64,000 nucleotides of DNA. Origin: Mya arenaria. Lineage: Eukaryota; Mollusca; Bivalvia; Myida; Myidae. The DNA is taken from contig NC_069132.1 of the NCBI RefSeq assembly GCF_026914265.1, positions 33,474,932 through 33,538,931 on the forward strand, in the 5' to 3' direction. Position numbers and translations under genes: made by a program. The notes below the pieces were generated by a model that worked only from the letters and a program-made list of their open reading frames with translations, was not told the DNA's origin and made no database searches. Shown piece by piece: positions 35,916-63,520 of this stretch. Each line of letters begins with the position of its first letter. The first letter of the stretch is position 1.

Positions 35916-36090
35916 AGTTAGCTCAGTTGGTTAAGAGTATGACTGCCAGAGTTCCGTCAGACATGGGTTCGAGCTCCAAACCAGGCACACTCATAAGTTT
36001 ACTTTACTGGTGTCAGAAGTCAAAGGCAGGAGTGGAAAGATTGGCATAAAAATTTAATAGAGGAGGAGTGTGCAGTGTGTGTGGATTATA
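35916..36090 (+). mobile_element. tRNA-derived SINE
   Basis: A tRNA-like head with A box (TTAGCTCAGTTGGTTAAGAG) and B box (GGGTTCGAGCTCC), followed by an unrelated body. Flanked by a 15-bp target duplication with two mismatches (AAGAACCAGCTGCAC at 35901, AAGAACCAACCGCAC at 36091). Too long, and without an intact cloverleaf, to be a tRNA gene. Confidence 0.82.
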
Positions 36091-37157
36091 AAGAACCAAC
36101 CGCACTGAACTTGAAATGTATTCAAATTCATTTATTTTACTGTTAGTGTATATGATTAAAAGAAAAAAAATCATAAATATCAATGATGAGAAAATGTAAC
36201 TATTTTATACATGTCAATCTATTGCAAATTCTTCATACATTGTCAGTAACCTCTGGAAATGATGAATAATGTTGAGACAAGAAAATAGAGGTCTAGATGC
36301 TATTCTTAACTGTTATCAAATTGTTTTTTAACATGCACAGTGTGAAGTATTGATACAACTTTCATAGGGTCGCACTTAAGTGCGGTCTTTACAGCGGCCG
36401 ATATAGAAAGCGTTGAATAGTGCGGACTACATAAACAAAGAAGGGTTTTGAAAACTGCGGCCAATATAGACAAAGAAGGAAATATAATATTTGCATTTTC
36501 CTCGATTCACGATAGATAAATTTTACAAATGTTAATGATTTAATTATAATTAATGTCTAGCATGTAAAAAGAGCTTTTATTTGCTTATTATTTATGTTTT
36601 AAGTATCGAAACCTCGGCTTTATTGTGGAGAAAATAAGCAAATCGTGTTATTGTATTTATTTATATCAAATATATAATCAAGTGATTAACAGCAATATTA
36701 ATATGACATAAAATCATCTTGAAAAATTATAACGTGTGATACAAATGCAAACATAATCATCCATCATATGAAGATAAATGAACTCAAATACACTGTGTGC
36801 ACATAAATTCGACGCCGATATGGGAAATATCACATGGTGCATTTACACAGTGCTTATGGTACCACTGTGAACACTTATCACTTTGTACACTTATCACTTT
36901 GTACTTGATCCCCTAAACATTCTGGTAAATTGCATATACAATAATTTTCGATGACAATATTAAATATATGTTCTGTTTTTACGTCGCACACAGATTGTCT
37001 TTTTAGTAGTTGAAAATTCCGTCATTTTCCGGATTCAAAACATTGTATTAAGTGTTCCCTTAGTTTAACAGAGTTGAATATGAAATCATGACAAGGTTTT
37101 TTATGTAAACAAAATGATGTCGCATGTGCGATTGCGTATAGCCCACAATCCACAGAA

Positions 37158-37487
37158 TTAGCTTACCTTTAAACAGCAGGCACAATAATTTGAATACTGT
37201 TTTTTATTTTTACCATAAATTTGCGAAAGTTTTTTTAAACCGTCTGGTATTATTCTATCATTTGGTCTGTCACATCCTAAACTGTCTATGGGGTAAGTAT
37301 TGTTTTTATAGTTCATTAAAGTTACCCAGTGCTCTTTATGTGTATGGTGAATTTGGCAGGAAAATTCTTCATCTGTTGGTTGCAGGGGAATGTGTGGGGT
37401 CCATATCTTCTTGTTATCGTCATATATCGGCATCGTCGTATATCGGCACCCTTTCCGGTAATTGTAAACCGCCAATTTTATTTCCAA
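37158..37487 (-). CDS. Ulp1/C48-like cysteine protease domain segment of element A
   Basis: The meaningful part starts near 37435 (MPIYDDNKKIWTPHIPLQPT). HHTHKEHWVTLMNYKNNTYP IDSLG carries the catalytic His (HW) and Asp (IDS) positions of the Ulp1 fold, and KKQYSNYCACCLK the Gln and Cys positions. It stops at a GTAAGC donor (intron start 37165 or just below), so the C-terminal part of the fold is expected in a further exon towards 36.5 kb that I could not identify. Such domains are often fused to MULE and KDZ transposases. Confidence 0.6.
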   Translation of the reverse strand: MEIKLAVYNYRKGCRYTTMPIYDDNKKIWTPHIPLQPTDEEFSCQIHHTHKEHWVTLMNYKNNTYPIDSLGCDRPNDRIIPDGLKKLSQIYGKNKKQYSNYCACCLKVS

Positions 37488-38292
37488 ATTGATTTTTTAA
37501 AAGTTTATTTGCTGCATCAATATGTTGTGAGTTTAATTTCCCAGATCGGTCATTTAAAAGATTTTTTTCTTCATTTGAAAGTCCAAGATTTTTTATCCAT
37601 ACATTATCAATTTCATAGGCACTGTCATCACGGTGACTGCTTAGTTCAATGAGTTCGTCTACTTCTGTAATGTTGGAAAGTTCTGATAATTTGGCGTATT
37701 TACTTTTAGTATTGGAATCTGGAGACATACACGAAAGCTTTCTTTTTCTTTCAGTTCTGGGTTGTTTTGGAGTCATTAAAATTGACTTAGGCGTTGAAGC
37801 AAATAAACTTCTTCGAACTTCACTATTAGTTAAGCTTTGTTCACTTTCTGCAATTGTATTTAAAGCGGGAGTTTTGAGAATGTCTTTATTTTCTTTTTTA
37901 ATGGTTGAATCAGGCGCCGGATTAACAACTATATCCGGTTTCAATTCCGTAATGTGGGAAAGTTCCCCTTTTATATATTCTATCATTTTTATCTGGATGG
38001 GTACGTTTTTAGGTAGTGACACTGTTTCAGGATCGAGGGCCGCATATTTGAGCGTCAATTCACCTTCTCCACAAAAAACACGTGCTAATTCAGAAAGTTC
38101 ATTCCCATGTAAATAATACAAATACAGCACAATTTCGTCTATTGCCTTTTCTTTATAGTCGATTAAACGTTTTAACTTAGCATTGAGACTTTCACTAACG
38201 TTATTAGTAATACCTGAATATGGACATAGAAGTAGAACAAATCTCAATATAGTATCTATCTTAATACTGCGGACGACATAGAAATATAACAA
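37420..38292 (-). CDS. MULE-transposase-like C-terminus and N-part of Ulp1-like domain
   Basis: The real exon probably begins at 38209, after an acceptor (CCATATTCAG), with GITNNVSESLNAKLKRL; the open frame upstream is satellite. NVSESLNAKLKRLIDYKEKA then IDEIVLYLYYLHGNELSELA resembles the region after the catalytic core of MULE-type transposases. A charged linker with KRKLSCMSPDSNTKSKYAKL (possible nuclear signal) follows. The end, DNVWIKNLGLSNEEKNLLND ... HIDAANKLLKNQFGNKIGGL Q, is the stretch that usually precedes Ulp1-like domains in invertebrate transposons. The frame ends at 37420, where a 16-bp repeat shifts it relative to the next segment. Confidence 0.65.
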   Translation of the reverse strand: MLYFYVVRSIKIDTILRFVLLLCPYSGITNNVSESLNAKLKRLIDYKEKAIDEIVLYLYYLHGNELSELARVFCGEGELTLKYAALDPETVSLPKNVPIQIKMIEYIKGELSHITELKPDIVVNPAPDSTIKKENKDILKTPALNTIAESEQSLTNSEVRRSLFASTPKSILMTPKQPRTERKRKLSCMSPDSNTKSKYAKLSELSNITEVDELIELSSHRDDSAYEIDNVWIKNLGLSNEEKNLLNDRSGKLNSQHIDAANKLLKNQFGNKIGGLQLPERVPIYDDADI

Positions 38293-41200
38293 CTCTCAAC
38301 AAGTCAATTATTGGAATACTGCGGACATTATAGAAGTAGAACAAATCTCAATATAGCATCTATCTTAATACTGCGGACATTTAAGAACAGAACAGAACAG
38401 AACAGATATTTTATTAAGACTTGTACAAAGTACATCATCTTCCTAACCACATATGAATAATAAATAAACAAACACATGGTATGACATTACATACAGGTTA
38501 TACATAATATGGAATAGAATCATAAATACATTCAAAAAAATAAATAAATATATATGCAAATCAGGTGAGGATGAACAAAACTATAAACTATTATAATTAT
38601 AAGTCAATATTTAAAATTGATCTTCTAATACTCAGAGCTTGTTTGACAAATAAGGACAGTTTTATAAGTTCTTGTTTATTTCTTGTGTTTAACAGTTCGA
38701 TGAACTTAAAAACAGACGGACGTAAATAATAATACCGTACATTTATAATACGGACATTTAAGAAGTAGAACAAATCTCAATGTAGCATCTATCTTAATAC
38801 TGCGGACGACATAGAAATAGATCAAATCTCAGCAAGTCAATTATTGGAATACTGCGGACATTTAAGAAGTAGAACAAATCTCAATATAGCATCTATCTTA
38901 ATACTGCGGACGACATAGAAATAGATCAAATCTCAACAAGTCAATTATTGGAATACTACGGACATTATAGAAGTAGAACAAATCTCAATATAGCATCTAT
39001 CTTAATACTGCGGACGACATAGAAATATAACAACTCTCAACAAGTCAATTATTGGAATACTGCGGACATTATAGAAGTAGAACAAATCTCAATATAGCAT
39101 CTATCTTAATACTGCGGACGACATAGAAATAGATCAAATCTCAACAAGTCAATTATTGGAATACTGCGGACATTTAAGAAGTAGAACAAATCTCAATATA
39201 GCATCTATCTTAATACTGCGGACGACATAGAAATATAACAACTCTCAACAAGTCAATTATTGGAATACTGCGGACATTATAGAAGTAGAACAAATCTCAA
39301 TATAGCATCTATCTTAATACTGCGGACGACATAGAAATAGATCAAATCTCAGCAAGTCAATTATTGGAATACTACGGACATTTAAGAAGTAGAACAAATC
39401 TCAATATAGCATCTATCTTAATACTGCGGACGACATAGAAATATAACCACTCTCAACAAGTCAATTATTGGAGTACTGCGGACATTATAGAAGTAGAACA
39501 AATCTCAATATAGCATCTATCTTAATACTGCGGACGACATAGAAATAGATCAAATCTCAACAAGTCAATTATTGGAATACTGCGGACATTATAGAAGTAG
39601 AACAAATCTCAATATAGCATCTATCCTAATACTGCGGACGACATAGAAATAGATCAAATCTCAACAAGTCAATTATTGGAATACTGCGGACATTTAAGAA
39701 GTAGAACAAATCTCAATATAGCATCTATCTTAATACTGCGGACGACATAGAAATATATCAAATCTCAACAAGTCAATTATTGGAATACTGCGGACATTAT
39801 AGAAGTAGAACAAAAATCTCAATATAGCATCTATCTTAATACTGCGGACGACATAGAAATATTACAACTCTCAACAAGTCAATTATTGGAATACTGCGGA
39901 CATTATAGAAGTAGAACAAATCTCAATATAGCATCTATCTTAATACTGCGGACGACAAAGAAATAGATCAAATCTCAACAAGTCAATTATTGGAATACTG
40001 CGGACATTATAGAAGTAGAACAAATCTCAATATAGCATCTATCTTAATACTGCGGACGACATAGAAATAGATCAAATCTCAGCAAGTCAATTATTGGAAT
40101 ACTGCGGACATTATAGAAGTAGAACAAATCTCAATATAGCATCTATCTTAATACTGCGGACGACATAGAAATAGATCAAATCTCAGTAAGTCAATTATTG
40201 GAATACTACGGACATTTAAGAAGTAGAACAAATCTCAATATAGCATCTATCTTAATACTGCGGACGACATAGAAATAGATCAAATCTCAACAAGTCAATT
40301 ATTGGAATACTGCGGACATTTAAGAAGTAGAACAAATCTCAATATAGCATCTATCTTAATACTGCGGACGACATAGAAATAGATCAAATCTCAACAAGTC
40401 AATTATTGGAATACTGCGGACATTATAGAAGTAGAACAAATCTCAATATAGCATCTATCCTAATACTGCGGACGACATAGAAATAGATCAAATCTCAACA
40501 AGTCAATTATTAGAATACTGCGGACATTTAAGAAGTAGAACAAATCTCAATATAGCATATATCTTAATACTGCGGACGACATAGAAATATAACAACTCTC
40601 AACAAGTCAATTATTGGAATACTACGGACATTTTAGAAGTAGAACAAATCTCAATATAGCATCTATCTTAATACTGCGGACGACATAGAAATATAACAAC
40701 TCTCAACAAGTCAATTATTGGAATACTGCGGACATTTAAGAAGTAGAACAAATCTCAATATAGCATCTATCTTAATACTGCGGACGACATAGAAATAGAT
40801 CAAATCTCAACAAGTCAATTATTGGAATACTGCGGACATTATAGAAGTAGAACAAATCTCAATATAGCATCTGTCTTAATACTGCGGACGACATAGAAAT
40901 AGATCAAATCTCAACAAGTCAATTATTGGAATACTGCGGACATTTAAGAAGTAGAACAAATCTCAATATAGCATCTATCTTAATACTGCGGACGACATAG
41001 AAATATAACAACTCTCAACAAGTCAATTATTGGAATACTGTGGACATTATAGAAGTAGAACAAATCTCAATATAGCATCTATCCTAATACTGCGGACGAC
41101 ATAGAAATATAACAAATCTCAACAAGTCAATTATTGGAAGACTGCGGACATTATAGAAGTAGAACAAAAATCTCAATATAGCATCTATCTTAATACTGCG

Positions 41201-43165
41201 GACGACATAGAAATATTACAACTCTCAACAAGTCAATTATTGGAATACTGCGGACATTATAGAAGTAGAACAAATCTCAATATAGCATCTATCTTAATAC
41301 TGCGGACGAGAAAGAAATAGATCAAATCTCAACAAGTCAATTATTGGAATACTGCGGACATTATAGAAGTAGAACAAATCTCAATATAGCATCTATCCTA
41401 ATACTGCGGACGACATAGAAATAGATCAAATCTCAGCAAGTCAATTATTGGAATACTGCGGACATTATAGAAGTAGAACAAATCTCAACATAGCATCTAT
41501 CCTAATACTGCGGACGACATAGAAATAGATCAAATCTCAACAAGTCAATTATTAGAATACTGCGGACATTTAAGAAGTAGAACAAATCTCAATATAGCAT
41601 ATATCTTAATACTGCGGACGACATAGAAATATAACAACTCTCAACAAGTCAATTATTGGAATACTACGGACATTATAGAAGTAGAACAAATCTCAATATA
41701 GCATCTATCTTAATACTGCGGACGACATAGAAATAGATCAAATCTCAGCAAGTCAATTATTGGAATACTGCGGACATTATAGAAGTAGAACTAATCTCAA
41801 TATAGCATCTGTCTTAATACTGCGGACGGCATAGAAATAGATCAAATCTAAACAAGTCAATTATTGGAATACTGCGGACATTATAGAAGTAGAACAAATC
41901 TCAATATAGCATCTATCCTAATACTGCGGACGACATAGAAATAGATCAAATCTCAGCAAGTCAATTATTGGAATACTACGGACATTTAAGAAGTAGAACA
42001 AATCTCAATATAGCATCTATCTTAATACTGCGGACGACATAGAAATAGATCAAATCTCAACAAGTCAATTATTGGAATACTGCGGACATTTAAGAAGTAG
42101 AACAAATCTCAATATAGCATCTATCTTAATACTGCGGACGACATAGAAATAGATCAAATCTCAACAAGTCAATTATTGGAATATTGCGGACATTATAGAA
42201 GTAGAACAAATCTCAATATAGCATCTATCTTAATACTGCGGACGACATAGAAATAGATCAAATCTCAACAAGTCAATTATTAGAATACTGCGGACATTTA
42301 AGAAGTAGAACAAATCTCAATATAGCATATATCTTAATACTGCGGACGACATAGAAATATAACAACTCTCAACAAGTCAATTATTGGAATACTGCGGACA
42401 TTATAGAAGTAGAACAAATCTCAATATAGCATCTATCCTAATACTGCGGACGACATAGAAATATAACAAATCTCAACAAGTCAATTATTGGAATACTGCG
42501 GACATTATAGAAGTAGAACAAAAATCTCAATATAGCATCTATCTTAATACTGCGGACGACATAGAAATATTACAACTCTCAACAAGTCAATTATTGGAAT
42601 ACTGCGGACATTATAGAAGTAGAACAAATCTCAATATAGCATCTATCTTAATACTGCGGACGACATAGAAATAGAACAAATCTCAACAAGTCAATTATTG
42701 GAATACTGCGGACATTATAGAAGTAGAACAAATCTCAATATAGCATCTATCTTAATACTGCGGACGACATAGAAATAGATCAAATCTCAACAAGTCAATT
42801 ATTGGAATACTGCGGACATTTAAGAAGTAGAACAAATCTCAATATAGCATCTATCTTAATACTGCGGACGACATAGAAATAGATCAAATCTCAACAAGTC
42901 AATTATTGGAATACTGCGGACATTATAGATGTAGAACAAATCTCAATATAGCATCTATCCTAATACTGCGGACGACATAGAAATAGATCAAATCTCAACA
43001 AGTCAATTATTAGAATACTGCGGACATTTAAGAAGTAGAACAAATCTCAATATAGCATCTATCTTAATACTGCGGACGACATAGAAATATTACAACTCTC
43101 AACAAGTCAATTATTGGAATACTGCGAACATTATAGAAGTAGAACAAATCTCAATATAGTATATT
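38210..43165. repeat. 104-bp dimeric satellite array, about 44 copies
   Basis: The unit is two related 52-bp halves, one starting AATACTGCGGACGACATAGA, the other AATACTGCGGACATTATAGA, each followed by an (A)CAAATCTCAA block. Copies differ by a few bases and by variant halves (ATATAACAACTCTCAAC for AGATCAAATCTCAAC). Excluding one inserted LINE fragment the array is about 4.6 kb. CTGCGGAC plus ACATA also occur in the element's TIR (GTGCGGACTACATAAACAAA), so the array seems derived from terminal sequence. It lies between the two coding parts of the element, presumably in an intron. Confidence 0.93.
38388..38750 (-). mobile_element. 5'-truncated LINE copy inserted in the satellite
   Basis: 363 bp flanked by a perfect 14-bp target duplication (CGGACATTTAAGAA at 38374-38387 and 38751-38764). 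On the minus strand it encodes the last codons of an ORF2 (RPSVFKFIELLNTRNKQELI KLSLFVKQALSIRRS ... stop), similar in layout to the C-terminus of the full LINE at 47.8 kb, then a 3' UTR and a (TTCTG)n tail. It is a member of the same or a sister family. Confidence 0.87.
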
Positions 43166-43535
43166 CAGGATCATTTATTTCTGATACATCTTAATATATT
43201 AAAAATGCGATCATTTGTCAAATATCAATTTTGAGAAACAAACAACAACTTATAATTGCATTGCTAAAATTAATTTCAACATAATATCTATTGGACCTTA
43301 TTTAACAATACGGGCAATATAGAGATAAATAAATTTCAACAATACATAGAAATCGAAGTAGAATAGATCTACTCAACACCTAAAATAGTGTGTGATATAG
43401 AGACAGATCTTAACACAATAATAAATATAGGCCAGTATACCACAGCATTGGCAGATTAGATAAACAAGTCATAAAATACAGGGGTCGTATGTCCCCAGGG
43501 AATTACTAAATAGGTGCGATCAACAGAAATAACCC
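43166..43535. other. Degenerate satellite-like stretch of element A
   Basis: Diverged half-units can still be seen (ACGGGCAATATAGAGATAAA, ATAGAAATCGAAGTAGAA), so the array decays into older copies toward the right. No coding sequence. Confidence 0.5.
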
Positions 43536-43724
43536 TTAACGAGACACATTTAAAGATGTAATTATAACACCAATCGAAATCACACACGGTAAATCCGGGG
43601 TAAGAATACACTGGGCACTGAAATTGTCAAAGTATTTCACATGTGAATGTCCAACAACTATAGCCATGATCACAATTATAAAAACATACACACACAAAGA
43701 ATAAATATCCAATAAGTGACACAC
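43536..43724 (-). CDS. GHS-motif 5' exon of element A
   Basis: The likely start is the internal ATG of MAIVVGHSHVKYFDNFSAQC. The same start, MALIVGHSQAKYLGNL, is found in element B at about 45.56 kb. (I/V)VGHSxxKY resembles the first block (GDS-like) of SGNH/GDSL hydrolase-like proteins seen in some invertebrate transposon ORFs; this is a guess from a short motif. After FSAQC the similarity to B continues at DNA level in another frame (CCGGATTTACCGTGTGTGAT), so this copy is probably damaged or spliced there. Confidence 0.45.
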   Translation of the reverse strand: MCHLLDIYSLCVYVFIIVIMAIVVGHSHVKYFDNFSAQCILTPDLPCVISIGVIITSLNVSR

Positions 43725-44290
43725 AAAATTTAAATACAGTTTTTAAGACACATACAAATACTAAAAAAACTATAAAAATCCTATAAACTAATTAGTATTA
43801 TAGCAATCTATTTAGCGTATATAAACACGTATATTAGAATGATTTTACACGGACAAAATCATGCTTTTTATATACACACTTTTACAAACTGTTAGTTATG
43901 TTACTAGTATTTACTTATACCATCAAAGACATTTAATGAACTAATTTGGCCGACTTCTTCAAACTGCGAGAACGACCCACTTTTCATGTCTCTTTGATCA
44001 TGATTCGTCTTTTCACAAATTCATAAATGTATAGATGATAATTAAAGTCTTGATTGTATTAACAAGCTCAACTCTAACATTTGCTTTATTAGTTTAATAT
44101 CATTAAGATATTATCAAATTATATTTACACACATTTGTCAATCAACCTTAAATGCATTTGTCAAATATCAAGTTTGAGAAAAACAAACTTACAAGTTCAT
44201 TGCTAAATTGATTTTGGGCTACATGGGAATAAATAATATAAAAAACAACAACAATTTAATGCAACTATTTTCTCTAAAACATTAAAGAAT
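43725..44290. other. Right subterminal region of element A
   Basis: AT-rich, with no open frame of note. It ends at the right TIR (44292-44389). Confidence 0.5.
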
Positions 44291-44696
44291 AAATTCCTTC
44301 TTTGTCTATATTGGCCGCAGTTTTCGAAACCCTTCTTTGTTTATGTCGTCCGCACTTTTCAACGCTTTCTATATTGGCCGCTGTAAAGATGGTCGTCCTA
44401 AACTGCTGACCGATTAGCTGACCATATAGGAATAGAAGAGATTTGCTGACGAATTGCTGACCATATGAACAAAGAAGTAATTTTTCTGTTTGTTTTGTTT
44501 GTTTTTAGTGTTTAAAATGTTTTACTGTTATATGAAATGATTAATTGAATTGACGACTGTTCTTTTTTGCTATTCCAAGAGCGTTTCTTTGCAGATAGAT
44601 GTCTTTTTATCATTAAAAGATAGAAAAAAACTGTCTACATCCATGCCACACCACGTGGAGGCGCTCTTACCATGGCCCATTTTTGTTTGAGTAAAT

Positions 44697-44900
44697 GAGC
44701 TAGTGAGTAGTGATTGATTGATAGATTGATTGTGTGAGTGAAAGAGTTATTGATAGTGAGTGATTGATTGAATGGGTGTGCTAGTGAATAAGTGAACGAA
44801 GCATATGTTACAGTGTGCTTGATGAATGAATAATGAAAGATTCAGTTAAACAAGGATTTATTTTTTGACCTATTGATTGATTGATTGACTGACTGCTTGA
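44697..44900. repeat. Degenerate (TGAT)n / GAGTGATTGATTGA repeat
   Basis: Runs such as TGATTGATTGATAGATTGAT and GACCTATTGATTGATTGATT inside element B. Confidence 0.7.
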
Positions 44901-45035
44901 TGTTTTTTGAAATCATTTAGTGGTAGATCACTGCCGGGTATGCTCTCCGCTGTGCTCGTCGGCATTATATCAATGGCAGAAATCGCAGTATCAATGTTAT
45001 ATATATATATATAAATGATAAATATATCATAGTCC

Positions 45036-45375
45036 ATTTTCCTTATATTTACATTGGTCAGCTAAGAATTTGAGTTTTCCTATACGTTACATTGGTCAGC
45101 ACTATGCAGTGAACCGTGAAGTTGACTGACCATATAGAAACAGTACAACTTTGCAATATCGAGTTCCCCTATACGTTACATTGGTCAGCTAAGAAATTGG
45201 TCAGTAACTTTTCAATACCAAGTTTTCCTATACGTTACATTGGTCAGCACTATGCAGTGAACCGTGAAGTTGACTGACCATATAGAAACAGTACAACTTT
45301 GCAATATCGGGTTTCCTTATACGTTATATTGGTCAGCTAAGAAATTAGTCAGTAACTTTTCAATGTCGAGTTTTC
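45036..45375. repeat. About 149-bp tandem repeat in element B
   Basis: CACTATGCAGTGAACCGTGA AGTTGACTGACCATATAG occurs at 45099 and 45248; the surrounding CCTATACGTTACATTGGTCA GC recurs four times. Two full units plus partial ones. Confidence 0.8.
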
Positions 45376-45584
45376 CTGTACGCATATTGAGTAAATATAA
45401 TATAATCTTCTTTCTCACTTATCGACTCCTTTGGCACCAACGGATAAAATTCCAAACTTTTATCCAGGAAATCACGCGCTTTAAATCCAGAGTATGAAAA
45501 CACGGGACACTTGGTTAAATTGCCTAAGTATTTCGCCTGCGAATGTCCAACAATCAAAGCCATAATGAAACTATTTGAAAACAC
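45360..45584 (-). CDS. GHS-motif ORF of element B
   Basis: Translation from about 45563: MALIVGHSQAKYLGNLTKCP, then VFSYSGFKARDFLDKSLEFY. The start is shared with the exon of element A at 43.6 kb. The IVGHSQ block fits a short SGNH-like first motif, but no later catalytic block is present in this short frame. Function unknown; a first exon of a longer transposon gene is likely. Confidence 0.45.
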   Translation of the reverse strand: MFSNSFIMALIVGHSQAKYLGNLTKCPVFSYSGFKARDFLDKSLEFYPLVPKESISEKEDYIIFTQYAYRKTRH

Positions 45585-46154
45585 AAAGTCCAGCTAAAAA
45601 AATATTTCACTATATGAGCACGCAAAACTGCACTAGACAAAATCCTTTTAATTTTACAAATGGAATCACACAAATTACAGAAAAAATAATGAAAAATACA
45701 TTGGTCAGCTAAGAAATTGGTCTGTAACTTTTCAATACCGGGTTTTCCTATTCGTTACATATTGGTCAGCTAAGATTTAAGAACTCCTCTCTATCATTGA
45801 GTAATAGTTAGCGGCATATAAAATAAGTAAACAAGACAACTAAGTTTCAATGCTATAATAACAAAATCAATTTGATAATAATTGGTCTGTTACAAATCCT
45901 TAACTCGTATTACTTTTTCATTTATTAACAATATCAGGCCATCAATCGGGTTAAAGGTAAAAATATTTGTCAATGACATAATGCCTACATAACAAATTTA
46001 TTAAGTATTTAGTCAACAACTTAACAATGTATCATAGTCCATTTTCCTTATATGTTACATTGGTCAGCTAAGAATTTGTTCAGTAACTTTTCAATATCGG
46101 GTTTCCATATATGTTACATTGGTCAGCTAAGAGATTGGTCAGTAACTTTTCAAT

Positions 46155-46220
46155 TCGCCTTATTCCAGAAGCCCATAATGCTTTGCGACAAAGGTGACTT
46201 CCGGTTTATTTCCGCATTCA
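46155..46220 (+). promoter_or_regulatory. Promoter-like core: ZNF143-type plus ETS-type sites
   Basis: GCCCATAATGCTTTGCGACA resembles the ZNF143/Staf site, followed 7 bases later by TGACTTCCGG, an ETS-type site. The same pair, same order and spacing, occurs inverted at 56450-56492. It is followed by a possible first exon ending at a GTGAGT donor (46278). Motif identity is from memory of the consensus. Confidence 0.4.
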
Positions 46221-46277: not shown

Positions 46278-46400
46278 AGGTGAGTAAAACATGTTAGGAA
46301 CATCAGGTTATACATTCTTCTATAAATATCTACCGTTTTTTTGTAAATGTCAATGAAGTTTTTGACGTTTATACCCAACTTCAATACACATTTAAGTGGG

Positions 46401-46560
46401 AGCAAGACAAATCGGCCCCTTACCAAATCGGCCTACTACCAAATCGGCCCCTAAGACGTTTCGGCCCTGCCATTTCGTCCCCTTAATTAAAATGACTCGA
46501 GACGTTTCGGCCCCTTAGTGATTTTCAATAGAGACATTTCGGCCCCTTAATTTTATTTTA
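46401..46560. repeat. Left terminal repeat of element C with iterated TCGGCCC
   Basis: AAATCGGCC occurs three times 16-18 bp apart, followed by GACGTTTCGGCCC, ATTTCGTCCCC, GACGTTTCGGCCCC and GACATTTCGGCCCC. The regular spacing suggests transposase-binding sites. GC-rich against AT-rich surroundings. Confidence 0.8.
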
Positions 46561-47398
46561 TTTTTTATCTTGAGTATAAAGAAAAACATTGTAGGTCGAC
46601 TTATAAATGTCAATGAGATCTGTTAATAAGTTGTAAATAAAATCTTTAAATTTAAAAATAGACAGATATGCATGAAAAACATTGATATGACTGATATAAA
46701 AATATAATAAAAAAAACTAAATAACTATTAACCCTGATTTTTAATATAAAATGTTAGAAAATCTAAGAAATTTTATTTGTTATAACTGTTAATTATTAAT
46801 TGATCATTAAAGACTTCAAAGAAAATTTGTCTTTTAACCATGCGTTCTTTTTTGCAAGGCAAACTGTTAGTGTTGTGGTGTGAAAAAGACATTCAAAGAC
46901 GTGTGAATGAATAATTGTCTTTAATTTGTTAATGTTATTTAGAGTTGATTGAAGAAGATTTGAGTAATATAAACAACATAAGTATATATATTAAATCGTT
47001 TCTAAAAGTGGGTACCATTTGTTTTAAACGTGTTGCGTTTTTTAAAAATGCCTTTTACATTTTAACCATTAATTTGTTATCTATGTGGTATACTTTGCTC
47101 CAGAATAATTATTAATTATTATTTTTGACAATTAGTGTTTTATCTAAACATAATTAGGAAATAATGTTTGTTTTATAGATATGAATTGCAAACAAGATAC
47201 AACTTGATAGTTCAAATGCATTTTAAAAAGAGTAAAACAATATATACGTAATAAAAAAAGTGAAATAATATTCTGTTTGAGGTGCGAAGAGATAATTGGT
47301 ATTAATCTTTAAGTGTGAGAATTAGCGTTTGGGAAAGTCGGAACAAACCTTGTAGACGTATTTATAAGCTTGTAAACACCAAGTGTCACAATTTCAAC
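46561..47398. other. AT-rich left interior of element C
   Basis: 838 bp between the left terminal repeat and the LINE 3' tail. No open frame or repeat recognised. Confidence 0.5.
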
Positions 47399-47832
47399 AG
47401 AACAGAACAGAATATTTATTAGACTTAAGCATTACAAGCTTATCGTCATAATAGCAAAAAACACATATATATATATATGGCATGCAACAATTTTAACACA
47501 TAGCATATTATACGCTAAATACATTTGATTTGATTGTTTCTGGGATATACATGTGAGAATGAATTAATATCATATGATATAATTTTTAATTGAATATTAC
47601 ATACTGTCGGACATTATTTAAGATTTATCAAACAGTAATCATGCATTGGTTATGTATATAGCCGCATATGACTGCGTATAATGGGTAATGAAAGTATATT
47701 TGATTACATCGTAAGGACCAGGAAAATGATGCAAACATGTACTGAAATAACAAAACATAAGGACAATACACCAACCCAATATGAGTTTTTACCCTATCAA
47801 AAATAAGATAGAAAACATCCATGACACATACT

Positions 47833-50800
47833 TTATATCAACGAATCACGAAGTTTGAACGCCTTATCACAATACATTGCTAATTTTCTAATGAGTATTT
47901 TATTACTACTTTGCATCAATAAAATATATTTCATCAAACTAATATGAGTATAAAAGTACTTAGGAATATACTGGCGTCTAAGGTCTGCATACACAGGGCA
48001 TTTAAGAACAAAGTGGAATTCGTCCTCAATATCATTTAAAATACACAATGTACATTTTCTTTCATGTCTAGGAATTTTATTATGTCGACCTATCTCTATA
48101 TTTAATTTATGCGAAGAAAGACGTAATTTAGCCAATACATTTCTATATTTTGTATTTTCTACCAGACTGAGATACGCTGATTGTTCAAAACTAGTTTTAA
48201 TTTCACGGTATACATCTAGAGCAGAGGATAGATCTAACCCAGATCTCCAATTACTTATATAAATATCTCGAAGTCTACTCCGAAGCACAGGCACAAAACA
48301 TTCAATTTTCACAGAACCAGGATAAAGCCATACTTCATTAAGACCAGATGATTGAAGGATGTCACGAACTCTTGACACCCAGCTCTTGGTTGACACGTTG
48401 TTATCTACATTATAAATTTGATCAAGTAATATAGCATTTAAAATACAGTTTTCTTGCTTTACTGAGTGGAGCTTTAAAAAGTATTTCACCATTCTAATAT
48501 GACGTTCTATGTACAATGGGAACCTACCCAACTCTCCATACAAGGCCAAAGTGTTAGTGGATTGTTTAACATTTAACACCCATTTACAAAATTTCTTATG
48601 TACTCTCTCTGAGACTTCCGCATTCATATAACCCCACACTTCAGAGCCGTAGTTTAAAACAGATAACACATAAGAGTCGAAGAGATTAAACATGATATTA
48701 ATTGGAACTGTAATATTACGAACCAGCCCCATAAGTGCGTGCAGTGATCGCAACCCCTTTCCTGCAAGTGTTTTGGCAGCTTGAATAAAAGAACCGCCAC
48801 TGGTAAAAACAACACCTAGATAATTAAAAGAACCCACAATTTCAACTTCCTGATTATTATACAACCATTTATCATTATTGCCCAACCTACCACCTTTCCT
48901 AAACACCATAACCTTAGTTTTATCAATGTTAACCGTGAGGTTCCATTTGCGACAATATGAATATAAACTATTTAAAGAGTTCTGCAAACCATCCTTTGTC
49001 TCTGAAACAATAACAGCATCGTCTGCAAATAACAGTAGATATATTGAAATTTGGTCGACAGTAATGCCGTCATTTATATTTTCTTGCAAATGCATTTCAA
49101 TATCGTTCAAGAAAAGTGAGAAAAATATCGGAGAGGTTATCTCCCCTTGAAATAAGCCAAGGTTACTGTTGAAAAAATCTGACAATGTTCCCAGGTGTTT
49201 TACACAAAGTTTCACCTCGCTATACATAGATCGAACAATGGACAAAATTTTACCGTCGATTCCCAATTTTATAAACTTATACCAAAGCCTACTTCTATCA
49301 ATGCAATCATAAGCTTTTTTATAATCAATAAAACAGCAAAACAGCTTCTTTTTTCTTTCAAACTGTTTTTGAATCAACGAGTGCAAAATAAAGACAGGAT
49401 CAACCGTACTATACTTATTTTTAAAACCAAACTGGGCATCTGTGAAAATACTATTTTCTTCAGCCCACAATTTCAGCCTTTCATTTAATACGATAGTAAA
49501 TAATTTTGAAAAACAGCTAGTAAGAGTTATCCCCCTGTAATTGTTAGGGTCTGATTGGTTTCCCTTTTTGTAGATTGGAATAACAACTCCAGTTGCCCAT
49601 GACCGAGGGAACGATTTCGTGTTCAATATATGATTAAAAAAGGAATTCAATGGTCTAATAATGTGTGGTACTGATACCTTAAAATACTCATATAAAACGT
49701 TGTCAATAGAGGGTGCCTTATTTGAACCTAACTTCTTGATAGCTTTCAAAATTTCATCATCTGAAATAGGCACATCTAATGACTCGAAAGTAGAGTTATG
49801 GTCTAAACCAGAATCAAATTCCCCAATAAAATCATTATATTCTTCCTCGCCTCTGAAATCACCACCTGACATAAGATTACTGAAGAAAGTTTGAAATTCC
49901 TCATTAGAAATAGTATCACCATTATTTGCTTTTTTCCCGTTTTTAAATATTTTCCAAAACTCCCTCGGAGACTTCCTTCTTAAATCGTTCATTTTACGAC
50001 TACGTGTAAAGTTGAATGAATTTTTTGACCTCCGACACTGATACTTATAATCTTTTTTTGCCACATACAGCGAAATTCGATCAGTATCCGAAAATGTAAG
50101 GTTAAATTGGCATACAGCGCTTTTATACACGTCATATTTGCGTTTACATTCAGCATCAAACCAATCCTGTTTAACTTTTCCGTCTTGGAAATAAGAGACT
50201 GGCGTTTGAGAAGTTTTTTGAAAATACTTATTTCCTTTATCACATATATATTTAGTAAAAATCGAAGTCAATCGATCTACATCCCCCTCCCCGCTAATTT
50301 CAGAATTTAACTCAAATATCAAATTGTCTATATTATTTGAAATATCACTCACAAAAGCGTCTTTATACTTTATATCAAATTTATAATATTTATTTTTAGT
50401 ATTGCTGCTACTCGGATCCCTGTGTACTGTATTTACCTTGAATGAAAACGTCAATGGTGCATGATTCGAAAACGTATTAAAATCACCCACTGAGAAATTG
50501 TCAAGCAGATTGACATTATCATGATGTGTCAATAAATAATCAACGACACTAGCCCCGTTATGGGTCATACAGGTAAAATTCCCACGGTCTCCCGGCCATC
50601 GACCGTTAACTATTCGCAGATTGGTTGCCTTACAAAGGTCAAGTAAAAAATCGCCAAAACGATTAGAAGTCATATCTCGCGAGGTGCGAGGCGTCGGAGT
50701 ATCTATAGTAATTACGTCATTGACATCAATACTACGATCAAATTGAATGAAATCGCCTTTACTACCAGTACGGCTATTAAAGTCACCTGACAAAAATATT

Positions 50801-51255
50801 TTCCCACGCTGACTAAACAATATAATATCTTGTTCTAGCTGTGTGAAAACATCAACACTATACATATTGTGGACCGGCGATGACTCCGGAGCAATATAAG
50901 TAAAGCAAATATATACATCATCATCAATATGGAAAAAATTCTTATCTAGTTTAACCCAAATAATGCAGTCTGTTGAATTTTGTACAAGTTTAACTCCATT
51001 TCTAATATTATCTTTAATATATACAATAAGGCCTCCACTTGACCGTTTCGCTCTTCGATGTTGGTATTTACGGTAAGAATGAATAGGGTTTGAATATCCT
51101 TTTATGTCAATAATTGAGTTCTTATTTGTCCACGACTCACTCAGGCATATTATGTCATACTCACAGATGAGATCAACAAAATCTTTCGACGACTTTTTCT
51201 GAGGAGTGAGTCCTTCTATGTTCCAGGAGAGGCACTTAAAAACATTCTCACACAC
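47833..51255 (-). CDS. LINE ORF2: APE endonuclease and reverse transcriptase
   Basis: About 1140 aa, same frame as ORF1 and two codons after its TAG. Endonuclease (5-275) with catalytic blocks LSWNIEGL, LSESW, SGDFNSRTG, VVDYLL and SNHAPL. Reverse transcriptase (about 500-800) with NYRGITLTSCFSKLF, CCFIDYKKAYDCID (near 645), LFQGEITSPIFFSLFLND and LLLFADDAV (near 743). C-terminal CTLCILNDIEDEFHFVLKC (near 1068) is a CCHC-type knuckle. The frame opens with GTG; the first ATG is near codon 132, beyond essential endonuclease residues, so initiation at ATG cannot give a working enzyme. All core residues are present. Confidence 0.92.
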   Translation of the reverse strand: MCENVFKCLSWNIEGLTPQKKSSKDFVDLICEYDIICLSESWTNKNSIIDIKGYSNPIHSYRKYQHRRAKRSSGGLIVYIKDNIRNGVKLVQNSTDCIIWVKLDKNFFHIDDDVYICFTYIAPESSPVHNMYSVDVFTQLEQDIILFSQRGKIFLSGDFNSRTGSKGDFIQFDRSIDVNDVITIDTPTPRTSRDMTSNRFGDFLLDLCKATNLRIVNGRWPGDRGNFTCMTHNGASVVDYLLTHHDNVNLLDNFSVGDFNTFSNHAPLTFSFKVNTVHRDPSSSNTKNKYYKFDIKYKDAFVSDISNNIDNLIFELNSEISGEGDVDRLTSIFTKYICDKGNKYFQKTSQTPVSYFQDGKVKQDWFDAECKRKYDVYKSAVCQFNLTFSDTDRISLYVAKKDYKYQCRRSKNSFNFTRSRKMNDLRRKSPREFWKIFKNGKKANNGDTISNEEFQTFFSNLMSGGDFRGEEEYNDFIGEFDSGLDHNSTFESLDVPISDDEILKAIKKLGSNKAPSIDNVLYEYFKVSVPHIIRPLNSFFNHILNTKSFPRSWATGVVIPIYKKGNQSDPNNYRGITLTSCFSKLFTIVLNERLKLWAEENSIFTDAQFGFKNKYSTVDPVFILHSLIQKQFERKKKLFCCFIDYKKAYDCIDRSRLWYKFIKLGIDGKILSIVRSMYSEVKLCVKHLGTLSDFFNSNLGLFQGEITSPIFFSLFLNDIEMHLQENINDGITVDQISIYLLLFADDAVIVSETKDGLQNSLNSLYSYCRKWNLTVNIDKTKVMVFRKGGRLGNNDKWLYNNQEVEIVGSFNYLGVVFTSGGSFIQAAKTLAGKGLRSLHALMGLVRNITVPINIMFNLFDSYVLSVLNYGSEVWGYMNAEVSERVHKKFCKWVLNVKQSTNTLALYGELGRFPLYIERHIRMVKYFLKLHSVKQENCILNAILLDQIYNVDNNVSTKSWVSRVRDILQSSGLNEVWLYPGSVKIECFVPVLRSRLRDIYISNWRSGLDLSSALDVYREIKTSFEQSAYLSLVENTKYRNVLAKLRLSSHKLNIEIGRHNKIPRHERKCTLCILNDIEDEFHFVLKCPVYADLRRQYIPKYFYTHISLMKYILLMQSSNKILIRKLAMYCDKAFKLRDSLI

Positions 51256-51258
51256 TTC

Positions 51259-52032
51259 CTAACAGGGTCCGCGGTAGAGATGGTTGTTGATAAACAGCTT
51301 ATCGACCTTAATAAAAGCCTCTTTGCCGTCCTTCCGGGCCTGGAGCATGATGGGAACCAGTTTCCGGCGCTGCTCCACAACCTGCTTAGGAAACTGTTCC
51401 GAGATCCCGTACTGTGTTCCCTTTAGTTCCTTCGCCGCCCGACGAACTTTCTCACGATCAGGGAAGTCGGAGAACTTGGCCACAATCGGCCGGGTCTTAT
51501 CGCCTTGGTAGGGACCGATCCGATGCGCTCTCTGCAGACGTATTACTTCTGTAGCATTGTCTATTTTTAGCTTTTCTTGAATAAACTGTAGTATCTTTTG
51601 CTCGCAGATTTCATCTTTTTCCTCAGGAATTTTGTGGAACAATAAATTGTCACGCATACTGCGGCATTTGAGATCTAATATCTCAGATTTCAGGGTATTC
51701 TCTGTTACCCTATGCTCCTCTTCAAACTTTTCCATTTTTTGGGTAAAGCTGTCTAAGTCTTTATGTTGTTTACTTATTTCGGATAAGGTTTGGCTGTCAA
51801 ATTCGCGACTCCGCTCGATGTCACGCACCTTGCTCTCAAGATCATTGATCTTTGTATCCATGCTTTGTATTCTGGTATTTATAGCGTTTACACTAGACTG
51901 TATGGAATCTAGGCGAGCAAGTTTACTATCCATACTATCTAATCGCTTAATTAGCATAGTAACTAGGTCGTTGTTCACTGACCCTGGTGAATTGGGCGCC
52001 TGATACCTCTGTGGAATGTGACAATTCGCCAT
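51259..52032 (-). CDS. LINE ORF1: coiled-coil RNA-binding protein
   Basis: 257 aa. Long N-terminal coiled coil (about 20-110: LIKRLDSMDSKLARLDSIQS ... KQHKDLDSFTQKMEKFEEEH), then an RRM-like region (RSMRDNLLFHKIPEEKDE ... VIRLQRAHRIG) and a C-terminal part (RPIVAKFSDFPDREKVRRAA KELKGTQYGISEQFP), the layout of L1-type ORF1 proteins that coat element RNA as trimers. It ends in TAG at 51259-51261, in the same frame as ORF2. Confidence 0.88.
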   Translation of the reverse strand: MANCHIPQRYQAPNSPGSVNNDLVTMLIKRLDSMDSKLARLDSIQSSVNAINTRIQSMDTKINDLESKVRDIERSREFDSQTLSEISKQHKDLDSFTQKMEKFEEEHRVTENTLKSEILDLKCRSMRDNLLFHKIPEEKDEICEQKILQFIQEKLKIDNATEVIRLQRAHRIGPYQGDKTRPIVAKFSDFPDREKVRRAAKELKGTQYGISEQFPKQVVEQRRKLVPIMLQARKDGKEAFIKVDKLFINNHLYRGPC

Positions 52033-52180
52033 AAGACCGTCTGTCTAAAATCACCGTTTAAGCCAGTATGGTTTTGCATGTACGTATTCGATATAAGATT
52101 AATAATAGTTTTTTTTTCATCCTTATATATACCTGATTTGAATATAAATAACTGAATTTCATAGAATTTATAACTTATAT

Positions 52181-52300
52181 CGAGAGCGTTACAGGGACAT
52201 CAACGCCAGGATCATGGATGAGTGGGACTCATACGATTCGCATAAGGTCACCTGCGAGGAGTTCCTGAAAAATGTTGGTGCCATCTACGGCGGGCGATAG
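52181..52300 (+). pseudogene. Captured coding tail inside element C
   Basis: A GC-richer run encodes RYRDINARIMDEWDSYDSHK, then VTCEEFLKNVGAIYGGR and TAG at 52297-52299, on the strand opposite the LINE. Codon use is unlike the AT-rich surroundings and the peptide looks natural (an EF-hand-like EEFLKNVG is possible). It may be the 3' end of an element C gene interrupted by the LINE or a captured host exon. Not recognised. Confidence 0.4.
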
Positions 52301-52439
52301 GTGTTTGGTCAAGACTGATGTTAGACAATGGACATGTCATTATACATAATATTAGCAACATAGTTATGTATAATATATAAAGATTATTTAAAAAAAAATG
52401 AAGTTTAAACATTTCTTCTTCAACTCTATTTCGTCTTAT

Positions 52440-52735
52440 AAAAATATCTCGTGAATAAATCTTTACATGTTTTCAAGTGTACAGATATTTTCTTTAAATC
52501 TATTTTTATCTATATCTTTGTATGCATGTATATAGCTTTGTCTCTTAAAATAAAAAAAAAAATGAAATTACATGTTTTTTACTTATATTTAGAAATAAAA
52601 TAAAAATATGTTTTCAAGTGTACAGATATTTTCTTTAAATCTAATTTTTATCTATACCTTTGTATGCATGTATAAAGCTTTGTCTATTAAAAAAAATAAA
52701 ATGAAATTACATGTTTTTTACTTAAACAATAAATT
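52440..52735. repeat. Tandem duplication in right interior of element C
   Basis: TTTTCAAGTGTACAGATATT TTCTTTAAATCTA ... TTTGTATGCATGTATA ... GAAATTACATGTTTTTTACT occurs twice with an offset of about 140 bp. Confidence 0.82.
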
Positions 52736-52762
52736 TAGATATAAAAAATAAAATAAAAATAA

Positions 52763-52888
52763 GGGCCGAAACGTCTCGGTAATCAGGGGCCGAAACGTCT
52801 ACGGGATGGGGACGATTTGGTAAGGGGCCGAAAAGGTAACCGTTTGAGCTATGGGCCGATTTGGTAAGGGGCCGATTTGTCTGGTAGC
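52763..52888. repeat. Right terminal repeat of element C
   Basis: Inverted version of the left end: GGGCCGAAACGTCTCGG, GGGGCCGAAACGTC, GGGGACGATTTGG, GGGGCCGAAAAGG, GGGCCGATTTGG, GGGGCCGATTTGTC. Six spaced GGCCGA-type motifs. Confidence 0.8.
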
Positions 52889-53225
52889 CATTTAAGTGGG
52901 TGGGGTAAAATAACAAATATAATGGTAAAGACTTTCATAGTAGTTCTCAAAGACTTCAAATACATATTGGTTGTTATAAAGTATGCATTCAATTGTGGTT
53001 TATTGAGTTTGTTATTAAATTAAATGAATGATATGTTGCAATTAGTGTGAAATTGTTAAAATCTGCAACTTCAAAACAGTCAAGTATATGAAGCTTAAAT
53101 GTGATTAAGAAGGGCATTTAAATACTGACTGCTGTGCTGTATGTAAACAAATATGCAGGTCTTAAAATAACAGCTTATTAATATTGTACTAGTAAATTGT
53201 AACTATTTAAATATCTGACTGATAT

Positions 53226-55404: not shown

Positions 55405-55645
55405 AACAACAGTTCAACCAACAAAAGAGATCCAACAAGTACTAGCAATGGGAATCAAACCAATATGACCCAACAGTGATTCAAATAACACTAGTTGTCT
55501 ATCACAAATTCTGTCCAACAAGCAGTCCAAACAACACTGGTGGTCCAACCAACACTTCCAGTCCAACCATTTATAATTGTTCAACCAACACGTATGGTCC
55601 ATCCAATATAGCGGCCCAGTAAGCAATAGATGCCAAACCAACAAT
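55405..55645. repeat. Degenerate CCAAC-rich tandem repeat
   Basis: Repeated (G)TCCAACCAACACT-like words about 20-25 bp apart (GTCCAACAAGCAGTCCAAAC, GGTCCAACCAACACTTCCAG, GTTCAACCAACACGTATGG). The minus-strand frame through it gives a Trp/Leu/Asp-rich chance peptide. Confidence 0.6.
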
Positions 55646-60179: not shown

Positions 60180-60640
60180 TGTTTGGTCAAGACTGATGTT
60201 AGACAATGGACATGTCATTATACATAATATTAGCAACATAGTTATGTATAATATATAAAGATTATTTAAAAAAAAATGAAGTTTAAACATTTCTTCTTCA
60301 ACTCTATTTCGTCTTATAAAAATATCTCGTGAATAAATCTTTACATGTTTTCAAGTGTACAGATATTTTCTTTAAATCTATTTTTATCTATATCTTTGTA
60401 TGCATGTATATAGCTTTGTCTCTTAAAATAAAAAAAAAATGAAATTACATGTTTTTTACTTATATTTAGAAATAAAATAAAAATATGTTTTCAAGTGTAC
60501 AGATATTTTCTTTAAATCTAATTTTTATCTATACCTTTGTATGCATGTATAAAGCTTTGTCTATTAAAAAAAATAAAATGAAATTACATGTTTTTTACTT
60601 AAACAATAAATTTAGATATAAAAAATAAAATAAAAATAAG

Positions 60641-63279: not shown

Positions 63280-63520
63280 ACAACAGTTCAACCAACAAAA
63301 GAGATCCAACAAGTACTAGCAATGGGAATCAAACCAATATGACCCAACAGTGATTCAAATAACACTAGTTGTCTATCACAAATTCTGTCCAACAAGCAGT
63401 CCAAACAACACTGGTGGTCCAACCAACACTTCCAGTCCAACCATTTATAATTGTTCAACCAACACGTATGGTCCATCCAATATAGCGGCCCAGTAAGCAA
63501 TAGATGCCAAACCAACAATA
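63280..63520. repeat. CCAAC-rich tandem repeat, copy 2
   Basis: Duplicate of 55405-55645. Confidence 0.6.

Follow-up and report, generated by a model that had tools for sequence, protein, structure and literature searches.

Element A, at positions 36367-44389 of the window (the whole 64,000-nucleotide stretch of Mya arenaria DNA that was analysed), contains a long tandem array whose unit resembles a piece of the element's own terminal inverted repeats (TIRs). The question raised by this locus is whether the array indeed derives from the TIRs, and whether it serves the transposon or is a by-product of its decay.

Structure and classification of element A

The two TIRs of element A, each 96 nt as aligned, are 96% complementary. 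Comparison with the flanks of other copies showed that the left end extends a further 19 bp (GGGTCGCACTTAAGTGCGG); the right end lacks these outermost 19 bp and adjoins directly element B, a member of a related family with a different TIR motif (CTGACCA). The full TIR of family A is about 115 bp long. The motif of element A, TGCGGAC...ATA, occurs three times per TIR, at spacings of 28 and 35 bp in a scan of the C3 and C4:70294629 copies.

Without the insert that interrupts it, the array amounts to 4.6 kb, i.e. 57% of the 8,004-bp element, in agreement with the first-pass annotation, which had described the element as more than half array. Its unit consists of a TIR-like core and about 13 bp absent from the TIR, and tandem-repeat detection found 95% matches among the units of the main stretch. 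The dozens of extra TIR-motif copies postulated earlier are present: one scan counted 88 anchors in the array, a second one 84 interior motifs. Single arrays carry private variants, and the 1,354-bp higher-order block has 96.5% self-identity. An origin of the insert as a copy of the neighbouring retroelement was considered and dropped; the match extends over 32 bp only.

Table 1. Features of element A and of the adjoining part of element B (window positions).
Feature	Position	Strand	Basis and remarks
Outermost left terminus GGGTCGCACTTAAGTGCGG	36367..36385	+	From 32 TIR ends and their flanks, those of the window among them; similar in many copies, not all
Left TIR, three motif copies	36386..36481	+	Inverted-repeat alignment
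PHD-finger remnant	36800..36970	-	In two frames, with the break at a 16-bp tandem duplication (36863-36904); intact homologue in L062 (PHD, 1.8e-8)
Ulp1-like protease remnant	37158..37496	-	ORF; L062 homologue matches Peptidase_C48 (2.6e-5)
Transposase C-terminal remnant	37420..38226	-	Begins CPYSGITNNVSESLNAKLKRL at array end; SWIM part absent compared with L062 and L074
Array of 52-bp monomers	38226..43159	+	104-bp A/B dimers; 1,354-bp higher-order block; motif oriented as in left TIR
Unrelated insert within array	38380..38750	.	371 bp; starts with (ACAGA)n-like stretch
Right non-coding part	43160..44293	.	Array junction common with C3 copy (43160-43561, 87%)
Right TIR, outermost 19 bp missing	44294..44389	-	Inverted-repeat alignment; flanks of TIR ends
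Left TIR of element B	44391..44490	+	Two CTGACCA copies at a 39-bp spacing; homologous to A TIR (TIR A vs TIR B, 0/500 shuffles)
Element B array	45073..45382	.	148-bp unit, 2.1 copies; CTGACCA on both strands
Element B second array stretch	46043..46154	.	59-bp unit, 1.9 copies

The gene, annotated in the first pass as transposase-like and Ulp1-like, survives in pieces only: a C-terminal transposase part, an Ulp1-like part and a frameshifted PHD finger (Table 1). A Pfam search of element A's own ORFs in the window found no transposon domain, nor any meaningful match for the Ulp1-like ORF, thus the domains were read in relatives. The ORF of the relative L074 gives a weak match to the MULE (Mutator-like element) domain, at 0.0026 and 18.6 bits where Pfam requires 27.6, in a part that is absent from the window copy, and L074 alone has a WRKY match (24.1 bits, above the cut-off of 21). 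A possible SWIM zinc finger in the relative L062 scored 16.6 bits, short of the 19.6 required. WRKY/GCM1-type zinc fingers preceding the transposase domain are associated with MULEs. The long TIR and the 8-bp target site duplications (TSDs) of two copies also agree with the long TIR and 8-10 bp TSD that characterize MULEs. These perfect duplications, read by eye, are ATTCACAA (C4:70294629-70295798) and TCTATATT (C4:66185210-66186411); in the other A copies the TSD is imperfect or unreadable, in the window copy because its right end is fused to element B. The window copy lacks the N-terminal part of the transposase, whose place is occupied by the array, and therefore it cannot move itself. Element A is most likely a broken, decayed, non-autonomous MULE.

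Array and terminal repeat among copies of family A

The resemblance between TIR and array, which had been noticed by inspection, held for both monomers when their consensus sequences were dinucleotide-shuffled and compared on both strands (n = 2000). The score of monomer A was reached by 6 shuffles against the left and 2 against the right TIR, that of monomer B by 0 and 1, respectively. In the duplicated pair C4:65553041 / C4:66185210 the TIR passes straight into array units, and in the C8 copy L094 it is followed by about 25 bp and then by array units. A core scan allowing up to 2 substitutions also covered 75,297 bp outside A elements, taken from six loci and from the remainder of the window, and found the motif there once. 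Without gaps, the match extends over no more than about 20 of the unit's 52 bp, as might be expected of a chance resemblance or of the capture of an unrelated satellite; this explanation is contradicted by the shuffle tests, the TIR-to-array transitions, the many copies and the motif swap described below, and we give it hardly any credence.

The array is not private to the window copy. Sixteen copies of family A were chosen by TIR similarity alone. As some of them are duplicated loci (the C4 pair, four C12 copies; in family B, the pairs L087/L088 and L090/L091), we give counts both per copy and per insertion, the latter numbering 12 when loci with shared flanks are counted once. Five or more interior motifs were counted in 11 of the 16 copies, and in 7 of the 12 insertions. 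The remaining five (5 of 12 insertions) have fewer, and 24 of 48 TIR clusters have no array match within 9 kb among the matches listed, thus the array is not required for family A. The right array junction is common to the C11 (window) and C3 copies, and the array has moved together with the element. Its orientation is mixed in C11:19472600 (10 +, 13 -) and in the C8 copy L094 (8 +, 2 -), and each member of the C4 pair has one reverse motif; the remaining arrays scanned have a single orientation.

It had also been proposed that such elements seed satellites. Local amplification with higher-order blocks would fit an array on its way to free satellite DNA, as in Tetris of Drosophila virilis. However, 25 of the 32 array clusters have a TIR match within 9 kb (about 0.02 expected, from a genome fraction of 0.0007) and in each of the other seven the listed matches extend over 391 bp or less. 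The match lists are lower bounds, and satellites can be lost from assemblies. Our genome search for array and TIR clusters found no large free satellite of the array unit among the matches listed. The seeding of free satellites was thus not borne out, and we consider this route very improbable.

Sister family B and the motif swap

The interiors of the A and B families contain different motifs. In 17 A interiors TGCGGAC was found 219 times (0.80 expected) and CTGACCA not at all, whereas 13 B interiors contained CTGACCA 192 times (1.53 expected) and no TGCGGAC. A motif-free test, in which 15 A and 13 B interiors were searched for TIR words with reversed words as control, gave a similar picture. 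At k=10 the A interiors matched TIR-A words 692 times (control 10) and TIR-B words 25 times (control 23), the B interiors 0 (control 1) and 255 times (control 37), respectively. At k=7 the contrast was weaker, A interiors matching TIR-B words 1399 times against 786 in the control. In alignments with 500 shuffles, the score of the A array was reached by 0 shuffles against TIR A and by 65 against TIR B, that of the 148-bp B array by 1 against TIR B and by 133 against TIR A. The whole 59-bp B unit did not match TIR B significantly (150/500), only its short core aligns. Homology between the A and B arrays is weak (15/500).

It must be noted that this co-variation of TIR and array motif represents at most two independent families. 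For family C, where the prediction was written before the search, the rule found no support: there were 42 TIR matches listed, a pattern for three successive C units had 0 matches, and a loose paired-core pattern lacked specificity (505 matches vs. 168 in the control), with 1 of the 100 matches listed (C4:40561682) lying within a C TIR match. A possible intermediate family at C3:76507500 (TIR core GCTGAC) was set aside, its few degenerate array-like units contain none of the three cores.

The explanation towards which we lean, if only slightly, is that element A belongs to a foldback-like MULE family whose TIR motif was amplified into an array. The motif would be the site recognised by the DNA-binding part of the transposase, the array would have arisen when this TIR motif was duplicated, and its sites would recruit the enzyme in cis. 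Array-bearing copies would be favoured or at least tolerated; slippage, faulty gap repair or unequal exchange would set the array length in each copy. Single copies have since expanded the array with their own variants. That the arrays of sister family B repeat a different motif, the one found at B's own ends, suggests a role of arrays as extra docking sites for the transposase. Of the transposase-binding-like sites named in the first-pass annotation, the extra motif copies are real; the case for binding gains weight, short of proof, from the different motif common to TIR and array in family B. Monomers within one copy are not always closer to each other than monomers of different copies (distances 0.362 in C2, 0.293 in C12 and 0.254 in C6, compared with 0.17-0.34 between copies), which counts against this explanation. 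Tentatively, and with more doubt than conviction, we also propose that the arrays are selected recruiting sites co-evolving with the transposase, TIR and array having changed together between TGCGGAC and CTGACCA.

It is possible that the arrays have the same origin and no function. A repetitive TIR combined with an internal deletion could lead to slippage or faulty gap repair, the arrays being reborn from the element's own TIR, neither selected nor bound; rebirth from each family's own TIR would by itself explain the motif match. This would be in line with the different array sizes of B copies whose first 480 bp are at least 99% identical, with the different periods and main motif orientations of A and B arrays, and with the existence of array-free copies, one of which, C4:70294629-70295798, has a perfect 8-bp TSD. 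The A arrays, however, share the block TAGAACAAATCTCA, which is absent from the TIR, thus they look inherited rather than reborn. Moreover, the unit core is about 0.74 alike between copies (9 columns) compared with about 0.43 for the other-side spacer (16 columns), although the units were picked by the spacer and spacer indels lower its apparent conservation. We regard an array without function as conceivable but doubtful.

The many extra motif copies in the interiors could also act as a sponge, titrating the transposase and lowering the activity of the whole family (dosage control), roles that were named in the first pass. Nothing here separates a sponge from recruitment in cis; family B has recent copies despite its arrays, and among the 16 A copies sampled the number of interior motifs exceeds 20 in only 4. 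We think that such a role is unlikely.

Precedents and implications

Close precedents exist in Tetris, Galileo, Muta1 and Rehavkus. In Tetris, a foldback transposon of D. virilis, the TIR-220 tandem repeats and the terminal part of the TIR have a 37-bp stretch in common (about 80%); repeat number varies between copies, and the authors propose extra transposase sites (PMC4079207). Element A is similar in that its tandem repeats share a terminal TIR stretch and vary in number. Tetris has its repeats within the TIRs and, in addition, as long satellite-like arrays, and its transposase was not found (PMC4079207), whereas the array of element A is internal and mostly of one orientation, relatives indicate the type of its transposase, and we saw no large array free of the elements. 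Foldback elements have tandem repeats in both TIRs; the A and B TIRs hold 2-3 motif copies.

In Galileo, a Drosophila element of the P superfamily, tandem repeats in the long ends are extra sites for the THAP domain of the transposase, and THAP binding differs between subfamilies (PMC3688188, PMC3573991). Galileo belongs to another transposase superfamily and has two additional sites per end, not dozens (PMC3688188). Its binding has been demonstrated, whereas we infer that of the element A array from sequence.

Foldback MULEs are found in Aedes aegypti (Muta1 and others; PMC5225508) and in root-knot nematodes (Tm1; PMC3169594). They share with element A TSDs of 8-9 bp, subterminal tandem repeats of variable number in the TIRs and many non-autonomous copies, and probably the MULE transposase. 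Their repeats are about 12-15 bp long and lie in the TIRs, and the available parts of these papers describe no kilobase array replacing the gene (PMC5225508, PMC3169594).

By description, element A is also like Rehavkus, which is MULE-like, with a PHD finger, TIRs of 26-400 bp and a minisatellite near one end (PMC6446971); in Tribolium, Rehavkus-1_TC has a 164-bp satellite unit arranged in short arrays within its inverted ends (PMC10218199). The PHD finger is present in L062 and as a remnant in the window. Rehavkus, known from arthropods and annelids, has a 9-bp TSD and its minisatellite precedes the 3' TIR (PMC6446971). In contrast, our element has a mollusc host and an 8-bp TSD in both copies with a perfect one; as its gene is on the - strand, its 3' end is the left end and the array lies 5' of the gene.

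The purpose of tandem repeats within foldback-like transposons has been an open question, and in 2013 the Galileo authors stated that a role of the repeats of Foldback and Phantom elements as binding sites was untested (PMC3688188). Two related families in one genome, each with an array matching its own end motif, bring the function within reach of a test that needs two protein domains and four DNA fragments, and the near-identical family B copies with differing arrays are a natural length series. If the arrays are indeed selected recruiting sites that co-evolve with the transposase, the two sister families would be a natural swap experiment, and the competition of non-autonomous copies for transposase would take the form of ever more docking sites in their arrays.

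Structure and classification of element A

The first-pass annotation described element A, the transposon copy at 36367-44389, as having long terminal inverted repeats (TIRs) and as being more than half tandem array. Both statements held: the TIRs are listed in the table, and the array, without the insert that interrupts it, accounts for 57% of 8,004 bp. Comparison with the ends of other copies placed the true left end 19 bp further outward (GGGTCGCACTTAAGTGCGG, 36367-36385); the right end lacks these outer 19 bp and directly adjoins the neighbouring element B. Perfect 8-bp target site duplications (TSDs), read by eye, flank two copies of family A, i.e. of the relatives sharing the TIR core TGCGGAC (ATTCACAA and TCTATATT).

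Features of element A and of the related families (window coordinates unless a contig is given)
Feature	Position	Strand	Description
Inverted repeats of element A	36386-36481 / 44294-44389		96 nt, 96% complementary
Array	38226-43159		52-bp monomers arranged as 104-bp dimers
Insert within array	38380-38750		371 bp, unrelated to array
C-terminal transposase piece		minus	starts with CPYSGITNN where the array ends
Ulp1-like piece		minus	
PHD finger remnant		minus	broken at a 16-bp duplication
Element B	44391-46160		truncated copy of a related Mutator-like family that has a TIR motif and arrays of its own; left end adjoins right TIR of A
Family C	C12:39636284, C2:16649106 and others		third related Mutator-like family, TIR core GCAGCCAAT

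Of the transposase-like/Ulp1-like gene ascribed to the element both pieces are present, but the coding part consists of remnants only, and the C-terminal transposase and Ulp1-like pieces gave no meaningful match in Pfam. Two loci of the same genome are more informative. L074, 63% identical to the window copy over 91 aa, matched WRKY (4.3e-5) and MULE (0.0026, score under the Pfam cut-off), and L062, 59% identical over 99 aa, matched SWIM (0.0058, score also under the cut-off), Peptidase_C48 (2.6e-5) and PHD (1.8e-8). The latter carries the family C TIR at 94%, thus it is a cousin and not an A copy. Going by the domains in these relatives and the 8-bp TSDs, element A most likely belongs to the Mutator-like elements. 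In the L074 frame, which is open at the 5' end, FSGITNN, the counterpart of CPYSGITNN, lies at residue 532 of 710, therefore the array occupies the place of some 530 residues, WRKY and MULE domains included. Compared with L062 and L074, the window copy lacks the SWIM part as well. No A copy with intact transposase was found among 26 matches.

The array insert contains an (ACAGA)n-like stretch and shares 87.5% identity in a 32-bp segment with sequence near 47396, next to a non-LTR-like retroelement (46386-52901; RVT_1 2.1e-32, Exo_endo_phos 5.2e-12). Inverted repeats that contain CAAATCGGCCCCTTA units flank the retroelement (46386-46433 / 52854-52901, 85%). A pair of tandem repeats occurs twice, at a distance of about 7.9 kb (52467-52733 with 60345-60610; 55523-55569 with 63397-63443), which suggests direct duplication of some kilobases. 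A tRNA-like stretch seen by eye only at 35917-35976 (GTTAGCTCAGTTGGTTAAGAG...GGTTCGAGCTCC) is perhaps the head of a SINE.

A motif shared by TIR and array in two sister families

The proposed resemblance of the array unit to the TIR was confirmed for both monomers at both ends: the observed scores against the left and right TIR were reached by 6 and 2 of 2000 dinucleotide shuffles for monomer A, and by 0 and 1 of 2000 for monomer B. Ungapped alignments of the consensus monomers with the TIR spanned 17-21 bp, the gapped alignment of monomer B with the left TIR 38 positions, and a closer match was found in other copies, between TTTGAATAGTGCGGACGACATAGA in C4 arrays and GTTGAATAGTGCGGACGACATAAA in most TIRs. 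The TIR contains three copies of the motif, spaced 28 and 35 bp apart in a scan of the C3 and C4:70294629 copies. As the window array has 88 anchor sites (84 interior motifs in a second scan), the dozens of extra sites proposed earlier do exist as motif copies; as transposase-binding sites they are putative.

The array-unit pattern had 286 matches in the genome and the TIR pattern 46, with none for the reversed array-unit control or the TIR control. A TIR match lay within 9 kb of 25 of 32 array clusters (about 0.02 expected), and 24 of 48 TIR clusters were without an array match, the underlying numbers of matches being lower bounds. To avoid selection by the array, 16 copies, several of them only partly read, were sampled by TIR similarity alone: 11 had at least five motifs in the interior (the part between the TIRs), two had one or two, and three had none. 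Common flanks among four C12 copies and in the C4:65553041 / 66185210 pair reduce the sample to 12 insertions, seven with at least five motifs. Copies with and without arrays, for which the annotation had recommended a search, thus both occur; C4:70294629-70295798 is a complete copy with perfect TSD and no array. Beyond A elements the same scan found one motif in 75,297 bp.

Family B, to which element B belongs, is large (339 candidates, 40 of them scored). The A and B TIRs are homologous (0/500 shuffles), and locus L058 combines a B TIR (92%) with a related coding region, 66% identical to A over 816 bp of DNA. The two families differ in parallel, in the TIR and the array motif alike. At the position of TGCGGAC the B core is CTGACCA, and arrays of 59-bp or 148-bp units with this core lie inside B interiors. 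TGCGGAC occurred 219 times in 17 A interiors (0.80 expected; in 16 of the 17) and CTGACCA never, CTGACCA 192 times in 13 B interiors (1.53 expected) and TGCGGAC never, the A set including copies chosen via array matches and both sets containing duplicated loci. Ten-base TIR words, with no motif chosen, gave the same contrast in 15 A and 13 B interiors, 7- or 8-base words a weaker one. Array A and the 148-bp array of B each align to the TIR of their own family and not to that of the other; the whole 59-bp B unit had no significant alignment with TIR B.

Because monomers and copies are related, the co-variation represents at most two independent cases. Family C, reached through L063 and L062, was considered as a further one, with the prediction, fixed before the search, that its arrays should contain GCAGCCAAT. 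The prediction was not supported: a pattern for three C units in succession had no match (another pattern was too loose to judge), thus the co-variation rests on A and B.

Inheritance and local expansion of the arrays

The right array-flank junction is common to the window and C3 (83960133) copies, with 87% identity beyond it, so the array was present before the two copies separated, and travelled with the element. On the left the junctions are at different places (38225 and 37830, respectively). Arrays also expanded locally: the variant TAGATCAAATC, with 26 copies in the window array, is absent from the eight others examined, and among the arrays examined CATTATGGAAG (10 copies) is private to C3. 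The C2, C12 and C6 arrays are not more uniform within a copy than between copies. The window array matches itself best when displaced by 1,354 bp (96.5% vs 90.7% at 104 bp), a sign of block duplication. In their first 480 bp, five B loci (L089-L093, on contigs C15, C13 and C8) show at least 99% identity, and the portion read of their tandem repeats ranges from 4.5 to 17.9 copies of the 59-bp unit. Since L090 and L091 have common flanks the five represent four insertions, and such near-identity at distinct sites points to recent activity of family B.

Tandem repeats that derive from transposon ends, or are located close to them, are already known (Tetris, Galileo, Muta1, Tm1, Rehavkus), with binding demonstrated for Galileo, and for aphid Phantom elements a table lists a minisatellite that follows the transposase ORF (PMC6446971). 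Rehavkus is close to element A in parts, but two Rehavkus features that we tested were absent here. In the portions of the open-licence literature covered we found no description of sister families in which the motif of an internal array changes along with that of the TIR, and none of such elements from a mollusc.

The array probably arose when the repeat within the TIR was duplicated: in the C4:65553041 / 66185210 pair the first array unit is the second TIR motif, and in the C8 copy the array starts about 25 bp after the TIR. A neutral explanation, that a repeat-rich end simply generates arrays, would account for most of the facts. It leaves unexplained the extra block inherited by A arrays, and also the conserved core: in units from 15 A copies, chosen by the spacer word AACAAATCTCA, identity between copies was about 0.74 in the core (columns -22 to -14) and about 0.43 across the anchor on the opposite side (columns +11 to +26), these being means calculated by hand from the listing, with spacer indels responsible for part of the difference. 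Under the somewhat more likely reading that the array has a function, the transposase would recognise the motif common to TIR and array, and the array may give the element a benefit in cis.
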